DNA of 64,000 nucleotides from Nitrosopumilus oxyclinae (GTDB lineage: Archaea; Thermoproteota; Nitrososphaeria; Nitrososphaerales; Nitrosopumilaceae): positions 896,187 through 960,186 of the forward strand of contig NZ_CP026994.1 in the NCBI RefSeq assembly GCF_013407165.1, given 5' to 3'. Of the stretch, positions 56,404 to 59,833 are shown in pieces. The position numbers and the translations under genes were made by a program. The notes beneath the pieces were generated by a model. It did no database searches and was not told the DNA's origin. It worked only from the letters and a program-made list of their open reading frames with translations. The stretch's first letter is position 1. Every line of letters begins with the position of its first letter.

Positions 56404-56703
56404 ATGGCTACAAAAAGAAAAGCTGCAACTAAACGTAGATCAACTAAAAAATCTACCGCAGCAGCTCCAAAACGAAAAGCTACTAGAAAAACTGCAGCAA
56501 AGAAAGCAGCTCCAAAGAGAAAGGCAGCTCCAAAACGCAGAGCCGCTCCAAAGAGAAAAACTGCAGCAAAGAAAGCAGCTCCAAAGAGAAAGGCAGCACC
56601 AAAACGCAGAGCCGCTCCAAAGAGAAAAGCAGCTCCAAAGAGAAAGGCAGCTCCAAAACGCAGAGCCGCTCCAAAGAGAAAAACTGCAGCAAAAAGACGA
56701 TAA
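56404..56703 (+). CDS. H1-like lysine/alanine/proline-rich basic protein (99 aa)
   Basis: MATKRKAATKRRSTKKSTAA and then repeated APKRKAAPKRRA blocks. Composition is almost entirely Ala, Pro, Lys and Arg, resembling the C-terminal tail of eukaryotic linker histone H1 and bacterial HctA/AlgP-type proteins. It should be disordered and bind DNA or RNA. The DNA carries repeated gcagctccaaagagaaag units. A stem-loop follows the stop. Confidence 0.85.
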   Translation: MATKRKAATKRRSTKKSTAAAPKRKATRKTAAKKAAPKRKAAPKRRAAPKRKTAAKKAAPKRKAAPKRRAAPKRKAAPKRKAAPKRRAAPKRKTAAKRR

Positions 56704-56975: not shown

Positions 56976-58586
56976 TCAATAAAGATAACTCATCAATTTT
57001 ATTTGTTCTTCAGTAGTAATTACATTTTTGTCAGTTAACATTTCCAGTAAATCTTTGAAGAGTGCTTTCTGTTCTGCAGACATTCCACCAGATGGACCTT
57101 TTTCTCCAGGAGAACCTGGCGGACCTCTTGGGCCTGGTGGACCTACTGGACCTTGTCCCCCTACTGGACCTTGTTCACCAATGGAACCTATTGGACCAGT
57201 TGGGCCACGTTCACCTTGTGGACCTTGAATTCCTTGTGGACCTTGTGGACCTTTTTCTCCTGAAGGACCAGTAGTTCCACGTTCACCTTGAGAACCTTGT
57301 GGACCTTGTGGACCTTTGTCACCAGGTGCACCTAGAGGACCAGTTTGACCTTTTTCTCCAATGGGACCAATGGAACCTTTGTCACCTTTTTCTCCCTGAG
57401 GACCAGGAACTCCAGTTAATCCTTTAGAACCTGCTGGACCTTGTGGACCTTGTGGACCTTTTTCTCCGATAGGACCCTCAACACCTTTGTTTCCTTTTTC
57501 TCCTAGTGGACCAGGGGGGCCGATTGGACCTTTGTCACCAAGTGGTCCGGCAGGACCAGTTAATCCTTTATCGCCATGTGGTCCAGGAGGACCTAGTGGA
57601 CCTTTGTCACCAGGAGGACCTAGTGGACCTTTTTCTCCGATTGGTCCAGGACCACCTTGAATTCCTTTTTCTCCTTGTACACCAGATAATCCAGTTGGAC
57701 CTTTTTCTCCGGGCGGTCCGGTTGGACCAGTTAATCCTTTATCGCCAGAAGATCCTTGTGGACCATCATCGCCCTTATCACCAGGGACACCACGTAATCC
57801 AGTTGCACCTTTATCACCAATTAATCCAGTTGGACCTTTTTCTCCTTTGTCACCAAGTGGTCCTTTTAATCCAGAAGGACCTTTGTCACCAAGTGGTCCA
57901 GTTGCTCCTTTGTCACCTTTTTCACCAGGAGGACCAACAATTCCTTTATCTCCTTTATCTCCTTTATCTCCAGTAATTCCTTTATCTCCAGTTAATCCTC
58001 TATCGCCAGAAATTCCTTTATCTCCTTGAGGACCTTTGTCACCAGTTGCTCCTTTGTCACCAGGTTGACCTTTAGGACCTTCAGGACCTTTAATGCCCAT
58101 TGGTCCTTGTTGTCCAGGTGGGCCGATTGGACCTTTGTCACCAGGAGGACCAGGAGGACCGTCAGGACCTTTGTCACCAGGAGGACCGGCTGCTCCAACA
58201 ACATTTGTTTTTGTAGAACGTGTAGGTTTTTGATTATCAGCATTTGTTTTTGTTTCAGATTTTATTTCAGACTGGGTTGATGATCTAGATAACGGAACTT
58301 CAAACACAGTATGCAATGAAGAAAATAAATCAGTAACAACAATCCAAACACGATTAAGATTAGATACAGATGATGGAAGTGGATTTGTAGGAGAGCCTAG
58401 AGTTTCAGAAAATAATCCATCTTTTACTCTGAGATGGAAATTGCCTCGCCATAAAGTTGAAAATTGCTTTGAACGAATATCATCATCTGAGGGTCTACTA
58501 TCAGTAATTGCAATTTGAGCTTCATAGACACCAGATTGTTTGAATGGTGCCTGTCCTTGAATCTCTAAACGTGGCTGAGATGACAC
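56976..58586 (-). CDS. Collagen-like protein with uninterrupted Gly-X-Y repeat
   Basis: 536 residues, GTG start. Residues 1-105 form a beta-rich non-collagenous head without a signal peptide ([20 protein letters not shown]). A Ser/Thr/Lys linker leads to about 123 continuous Gly-X-Y triplets (131 to about 500), dominated by GDKGPxGPPG. Lys-Asp and Lys-Glu pairs next to glycine can stabilise the helix without hydroxyproline. The last 35 residues ([20 protein letters not shown]) are a helix that could trimerise the chain. Function unknown; without a signal, location is uncertain. Confidence 0.85.
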
Positions 58587-58711
58587 AAACGTTTGTTAAT
58601 ATTTCAAGTATTTCTGTATTTAGATCGCAAAGTTCTATTTGAAATCAAGTACGATCAAGATTAGGCGCAATTAAGGTTGGTATTTATCTAGATAAAATGC
58701 CTATTTGAGCT

Positions 58712-59833
58712 GTGAAGAAACCTTTTGGAAGAAAATCAAAGGACAAAGAGGAAATAAAAGTCGAGAAGACAATCCCACAAGAAAGAAGTTTAGTAGATAT
58801 CGATTACAATTTAAAAAGATTATACAAAAAAGGCATCAATTTGATGGCTGATGAAAAACTAGAAGATGCCATTGAAATGTTTGAGCAAGCATTACGAATT
58901 GACCCAAAAAATGTTGAAGTATTGATGAAACTAGGATACGCCAGATTCCATCTAGAGGAATTCTCAGATGCTTTGAAAGTATATGACAAAGTTTTAGAAA
59001 TTGATGTTACAAATCCAGAAGCTTGGAATCTCAAAGGGCTAGTACACTATGAACAGAAAAAATATGCTCAAGCTCTAGATGCAGCACAGAAAGCAATAGA
59101 GTCAGATGCAACATATGGAATGGCATGGTACAACAAAGCATGTTTCTTATCACTACTAAATCAAGTTCCAGAATCACTTGAAGCTTTGAAACGCTCCATA
59201 GAAATTGATGTTAAAAATGCAAGAAGGTCTATCAGAGATAGAGATTTCACAAATGTCAAAATTGAAGAAGGATTTAAAAGAATTGAAGAAGTCGTTGTTT
59301 TAGAATCAATCAGACAAGGATACCATACAATAGGGGCAATTGTATGGACAACATTCCTAGACAAAGTAGATGCAGAAACTGCTTTGAGAAAATTATTAGA
59401 GAAAGGACTAATAGTTCAAAATGAAAAACGTGACGGTCTAAGTAAAATTCCAATATATGATCTAGCAGATAACATTGCAGAGAAACTCGGCAAAGAAAAG
59501 AAAGGACTATTTGGAATTACAAAGAAAACATTACCACGACCAGTTAAAAATTTGAAAGAACTTAGTCAAGCTATTCAATCAGTAAGAGAAGCAATAGAAG
59601 AAGAAGATGTCGATAAAACAATTGAACTGTTTGATGAATTCATTGACCCAACAAAATCAGGTGAACAAATGATTGAAACTTTCTTTGATGAACATAGAGA
59701 AATAAGATTATGGAAAATCAGACTAAAAGATAGAGGGGTAGATTATCTAATTGATAACAAAGACAAAATGGTAGATCTCTTCGACAACATTGAAGGAACT
59801 GTAACGAAAAAACTTAGAGAACAGATTTCCTAA
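58712..59833 (+). CDS. TPR protein with C-terminal winged-helix-like region
   Basis: 373 residues, GTG start. Four TPR units at about 30-165 (DAIEMFEQALRIDPKN, DALKVYDKVLEIDVTN, QALDAAQKAIESDATY). The middle (VWTTFLDKVDAETALRKLLE..KIPIYDLADNIAEKLGKE) resembles a winged helix. It probably binds proteins and perhaps DNA. Convergent with the rhodanese gene, with stops adjacent. Confidence 0.8.
   Translation: MKKPFGRKSKDKEEIKVEKTIPQERSLVDIDYNLKRLYKKGINLMADEKLEDAIEMFEQALRIDPKNVEVLMKLGYARFHLEEFSDALKVYDKVLEIDVTNPEAWNLKGLVHYEQKKYAQALDAAQKAIESDATYGMAWYNKACFLSLLNQVPESLEALKRSIEIDVKNARRSIRDRDFTNVKIEEGFKRIEEVVVLESIRQGYHTIGAIVWTTFLDKVDAETALRKLLEKGLIVQNEKRDGLSKIPIYDLADNIAEKLGKEKKGLFGITKKTLPRPVKNLKELSQAIQSVREAIEEEDVDKTIELFDEFIDPTKSGEQMIETFFDEHREIRLWKIRLKDRGVDYLIDNKDKMVDLFDNIEGTVTKKLREQIS

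Follow-up and report, generated by a model that had tools for sequence, protein, structure and literature searches.

A long, unbroken collagen-like protein that very likely lacks a signal peptide appears to be an ancestral core component of the Nitrosopumilaceae

Our data reveal that almost all well-sequenced members of the Nitrosopumilaceae, ammonia-oxidising archaea that are among the ocean's most abundant microbes, carry a gene for a long, unbroken collagen-like protein, and comparison of sequences across the order suggests that this gene is a core, single-copy, syntenic and ancestral gene of the family. A protein type that is normally extracellular appears here as an ancestral and possibly internal structural part of an archaeal lineage. 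The architecture of the protein, its conservation, the unbroken glycine phase, the charge register along the repeat and the absence of a signal peptide form the established part of our model. Beyond these features we infer, with a probability of roughly 55%, that the protein trimerises into a triple-helical rod of ~106 nm, which starts out and resides in the cytoplasm and serves as a spacer or tether. Even family genomes of about 0.8-1.2 Mb retain the gene; a core, unbroken collagen-like rod without export signal in genomes of this size would rank as a prime candidate for a cell structure as yet unrecognised, and an internal collagen, if true, would call into question the view that proteins of this type act extracellularly.

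The gene lies in the 64,000-nt stretch of Nitrosopumilus oxyclinae DNA that was analysed here (the window; Table 1). The original prediction had placed a long, unbroken collagen-like protein with about 123 perfect triplets at this site, and its coordinates were right: the repeat comprises 124 perfect triplets in one run, the terminal GGM counted (aa 131-502). From the N- to the C-terminus, the protein consists of a head of ~100 aa and a linker of ~30 aa, which together make up an N-terminal part of 130 residues, followed by the repeat and the tail of 34 aa. An in-frame TAA is located four codons upstream of the GTG start of the 536-aa ORF, and cysteine is absent from the whole protein. Collagen (PF01391, Collagen triple helix repeat) was the sole family found in a Pfam search of the whole protein, with an E-value of 4.7e-59 and 196.5 bits, above the cut-off of 27.2.

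Table 1. Features of the collagen-like locus, numbered from the first letter of the window
Feature	Position	Strand	Description
Collagen-like protein gene	56976..58586	(-)	536 aa, GTG start; Pfam Collagen match; orthologs in 22 genera
C-terminal tail, aa 503-536	56979..57080	(-)	predicted helical hairpin, near-invariant end; candidate trimerisation/nucleation module
Collagen-like domain, aa 131-502	57081..58196	(-)	124 uninterrupted Gly-X-Y triplets; ~106 nm if triple-helical
Linker, aa 102-130	58197..58283	(-)	low-complexity; ortholog lengths differ, 27-70 aa by the count used
N-terminal head, aa 2-101	58284..58583	(-)	predicted beta-sandwich, AlphaFold2
Conserved promoter element AAATACARAAATACTT(S)	58605..58621	(-)	18-19 nt upstream of the start codon
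Divergent TPR protein gene	58712..59833	(+)	conserved neighbour, adjacent in most of 86 loci

Exactly one unbroken Gly-X-Y run is present in all 99 distinct complete orthologs, which excludes chance as well as a frameshift artefact. The run comprises 68-163 triplets, 124 being the most common length (23 orthologs). Among 15 species with repeats of the same length, the glycine codons differ by 5,621 synonymous and not a single non-synonymous pairwise change, a contrast that is absolute even though the species pairs are non-independent, and the X and Y positions have a dN of 0.17 with a dS of about 1. The composition is charge-rich, as had been predicted, but the Lys-Gly-Asp/Glu motif proposed at the time is not the prevailing one: literal KGD/KGE junctions occur only six times in the repeat, whereas Gly-Asp/Glu-Lys, with an acidic residue in X and a basic residue in Y, accounts for 34 of the 124 triplets. 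The positions of these acidic-basic triplets are near-invariant in the 15 species (26 always charged, 83 never, 15 mixed), and in all orthologs the charge has a periodicity of four triplets (12 residues; autocorrelation 0.51). The near-invariant positions and the 12-residue period together point to selection on the axial charge register besides the glycine phase. Triplet counts cluster near 101-104 and 119-126, which led us to consider a quantised length, i.e., a fixed ruler; yet triplet-level alignments reveal ordinary whole-triplet indels at differing sites, and since these alter the length, a simple ruler is unsupported.

Judging from this pattern, the repeat is likely to form a triple helix. 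That it is instead a soluble, disordered polyampholyte spacer without any triple helix, flanked by a functional head and tail, seems improbable to us: such a spacer would be in keeping with the absence of a match to PF13640 (a prolyl-hydroxylase-type domain) in the genome, with the low share of proline at Y (only 14%), and with marine group II archaea, in which highly expressed proteins, one cluster of them annotated as collagen-like, were classed as intrinsically disordered (PMC5069720), but disorder alone would not demand a glycine at strictly every third residue, uninterrupted in 99 proteins.

AlphaFold2, given 56 aligned sequences, models the head with confidence as a sandwich-like domain that consists mainly of beta structure (pLDDT 92, pTM 0.83), which bears out the expectation of a folded N-terminal domain. 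A helical C-terminus had been anticipated as well, and the tail is indeed predicted to be helical (pLDDT 94), albeit as a two-helix hairpin and not as a single helix. In the 99 complete orthologs the tail always measures 33-35 residues, and it is more conserved than the head (dN 0.07 vs. 0.13). Head and tail match no known family: the head sequence has no match in Pfam, PHROG or PDB, the tail sequence has none in PDB, and a search for the tail in other proteins of the order gave no convincing matches. One weak Pfam match of the head, to OGG_N in one of 17 members, was taken as chance. The predicted fold of the head provides no functional lead either, as a Foldseek search against PDB returned nothing below E 0.08 (S-layer and Ig-like adhesin domains came nearest, with low scores) and a comparison with viral structures returned no match at E <= 0.001. 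For the tail, the adjacency of a predicted helical module to the collagen run makes a role in trimerisation, chain selection and nucleation plausible.

The start of the protein is marked by a conserved promoter element of 16 nt, which is found with at most two mismatches in 115 of 122 orthologous upstream regions, at a distance from the start codon that is nearly always 18-19 nt; every shuffled control had three mismatches or more. Its second, TATA-like half, AAATACTT, occupies the TATA-box position expected for a transcript that begins at the start codon, and the mRNA of the collagen-like gene is probably leaderless. The spacing of the element indicates that the start codon has very probably been annotated correctly, with no hidden signal peptide ahead of it, from which it follows that the protein would begin in the cytoplasm. 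A regulon sharing the element was considered and rejected: the exact AAATACARAAATACTT element occurs once in the genome, at the collagen-like gene, and near matches are about as frequent as the background predicts. A strongly hydrophobic N-terminal stretch is absent from all 117 orthologous proteins (maximum 15-residue Kyte-Doolittle mean 1.52), and the 536-aa protein contains no transmembrane segment, LPXTG motif or signal peptide. On these grounds, the lack of a signal peptide, already noted in the original prediction, is very likely genuine.

Collagen-like proteins of known role are overwhelmingly extracellular, and a cytoplasmic rod consequently has a weak prior. The main alternative to it is export by a pathway other than Sec or Tat, with the protein forming surface fibres or an adhesin in touch with the S-layer; we regard this as unlikely, if deserving of serious attention. 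The accessible text of a 2026 culture study of Nitrosopumilaceae describes highly expressed 'LPXTG-anchored collagen-like adhesins', one of them detected in the proteome, and proposes that they interact with the S-layer (PMC13037477). As 'LPXTG-anchored collagen-like adhesin' is the name of the NCBIfam SclB model, which our protein matches below cut-off, the protein detected may be an ortholog and would then lend weight to a surface location; it may be a misleadingly auto-named ortholog or, alternatively, the longer, second collagen-like protein that one relative encodes. The location of the adhesin is not established in that text, however, and a surface role sits poorly with the absence of signal peptide, transmembrane segment and LPXTG motif, and with the absence of specialised export genes adjoining the collagen-like gene in the 86 loci. 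Moreover, the seemingly exported collagen-like proteins of related archaea do carry signal peptides: seven others of the order have hydrophobic N-termini (1.96-3.19), several of them signal-peptide-like. Residence in the cytoplasm is, in our view, more likely than a location at the surface.

The archaeal protein shares with streptococcal Scl1/Scl2 and with Legionella Lcl a long, charge-rich Gly-X-Y run beside a non-collagenous domain. The NCBIfam models for Lcl, SclB and SclA match the archaeal repeat, but not the head or the tail, and the scores stay below the equivalog cut-offs of SclB (217.7 vs. 325 bits) and SclA (183.2 vs. 400) as well as the Lcl cut-off (235.4 vs. 500, with the best stretch confined to the repeat). 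In contrast to Scl1/Scl2, it possesses neither a signal peptide nor an LPXTG anchor, and is encoded by a core gene of a whole archaeal family. Matches of the NCBIfam adhesin models (NF038329, NF046116) to the repeat lie below cut-off, and pipelines blind to cut-offs would call an LPXTG-anchored adhesin; such repeat-derived automatic names (SclB- or Lcl-like adhesin) may mislead. The BclA-type exosporium glycoproteins of Bacillus have a collagen-like stalk and a C-terminal TNF-like trimer domain, lack a classical signal peptide, are synthesised in the cytoplasm, and are freed by mother-cell lysis in these spore formers. The two would have in common the stalk, its synthesis in the cytoplasm and the lack of such a signal peptide, whereas the C-terminus in our case is a predicted helical hairpin of 34 aa instead of a TNF/C1q-like beta trimer domain, and the hosts do not sporulate.

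Gly-X-Y repeats are also found in other archaeal collagen-like proteins; in themselves they are no rarity among archaea, contrary to what had been supposed, but the prediction of a long, unbroken one without signal peptide in an ammonia-oxidiser was right. In the seven others of the order the runs are shorter (14-52 triplets) and the N-terminus is hydrophobic, and none of them possesses this head or tail. Our literature search found no dedicated study of a signal-less collagen-like protein in Nitrosopumilaceae, and while archaeal collagen-like proteins were already known, a conserved, core and signal-less one appears to be new. The DnaK/Hsp70 of the same genome (C1:106000-111000) bears seven C-terminal GAEGQQ repeats, which are Gly-X-Y-like and trigger the Pfam Collagen model.

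With the head alone as query, 32 of 61 relatives, all of them Nitrosopumilus, gave a single match each, and the head alignment recovered the gene, always in one copy, in 192 of the 400 genomes sampled from the order (22 of 66 genera). None of the matches listed for these 400 genomes lies outside Nitrosopumilaceae, and a phylum-wide sample gave only marginal matches outside the family (E of at least 0.06). The search across the order and outgroups, which the original prediction had called for, thus uncovered a family-wide core gene, an extent greater than had been foreseen. All 24 closed (single-contig) family genomes listed carry the gene, one of them with a broken frame: this copy, in a divergent family genome (G236 C1:43000-49000), has a frame change and a stop, for which sequencing error and decay are alike possible. 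None of the listed family genomes without the gene is closed, and many are fragmented assemblies, from which repeat genes readily drop out. A non-exhaustive scan of 84,980 named species genomes, with a single peptide pattern as its basis, located 67 loci, every one of them titled as thaumarchaeal or as an unspecified archaeon (Nitrosopumilus, Nitrosarchaeum, Nitrosotalea, Nitrosopumilales MAGs, Marine Group I and similar). The tree of head, tail and neighbour genes is grouped in line with genera, as vertical descent predicts. The MAG SCK_bin.6, titled Nitrososphaeraceae, groups with Nitrosarchaeum by its collagen-like gene and neighbours, and is probably misnamed.

This distribution also bears on the idea that a viral or mobile-element fibre gene was captured in the chromosome. 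Phage tail fibres often have collagen-like shafts without signal peptides, a likeness to our protein that makes the idea worth weighing. We nevertheless consider it highly improbable: no viral contig encodes a relative of the head, which has no PHROG match either, the gene stands in housekeeping synteny as a chromosomal core gene across the family, and its single copy and vertical pattern argue against a recent mobile gene. A fibre of an extracellular contractile injection system was rejected as well, the catalogue paper giving no link to Nitrosopumilaceae.

If the protein is a cytoplasmic trimeric rod, as we prefer to think, its gene would date from the ancestor of Nitrosopumilaceae and have remained a single-copy core gene ever since. 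The mRNA would probably be leaderless and encode no signal peptide, so that the protein would start out in the cytoplasm; three chains would be joined via their C-terminal helical hairpins, and the Gly-X-Y stretch would then wind into a triple helix without interruptions, which would owe its stability to proline and the regularly spaced acidic-basic triplets and not to hydroxyproline. The product would be a rigid rod that carries three beta-sandwich heads at the N-terminus and measures about 106 nm here (relatives: about 58-140 nm). The heads might bind one partner, while the conserved tail and the charge pattern would govern how the rod assembles along its length and at its opposite end; our best guess as to the most likely role is a structural spacer or tether. 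A bolder version, in which an ancestral and obligately cytoplasmic collagen, as a core cytoskeletal-like rod with charge-driven ordered assembly, organises the interior of the very small cells of all Nitrosopumilaceae, is less likely and put forward only tentatively.

The usual locus (86 loci) comprises a Drg-like GTPase gene, the collagen-like gene and the divergent TPR gene, beyond which follow a rhodanese, then a sulfite/nitrite-reductase-type and then a Thi4-like gene (names given by inspection of translations). Other families of the order possess the TPR gene without a collagen neighbour, and the collagen-like gene was therefore probably gained beside it in the family ancestor. The TPR gene is the older of the two, and their adjacency does not imply a functional partnership. 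Downstream of the collagen-like gene and convergent to it, positions 56404-56703 (+) encode a 99-aa Lys/Arg/Ala repeat protein with AAPKRK units, which resembles histone-H1-type tails and has matches in only 10 of the 86 related loci.
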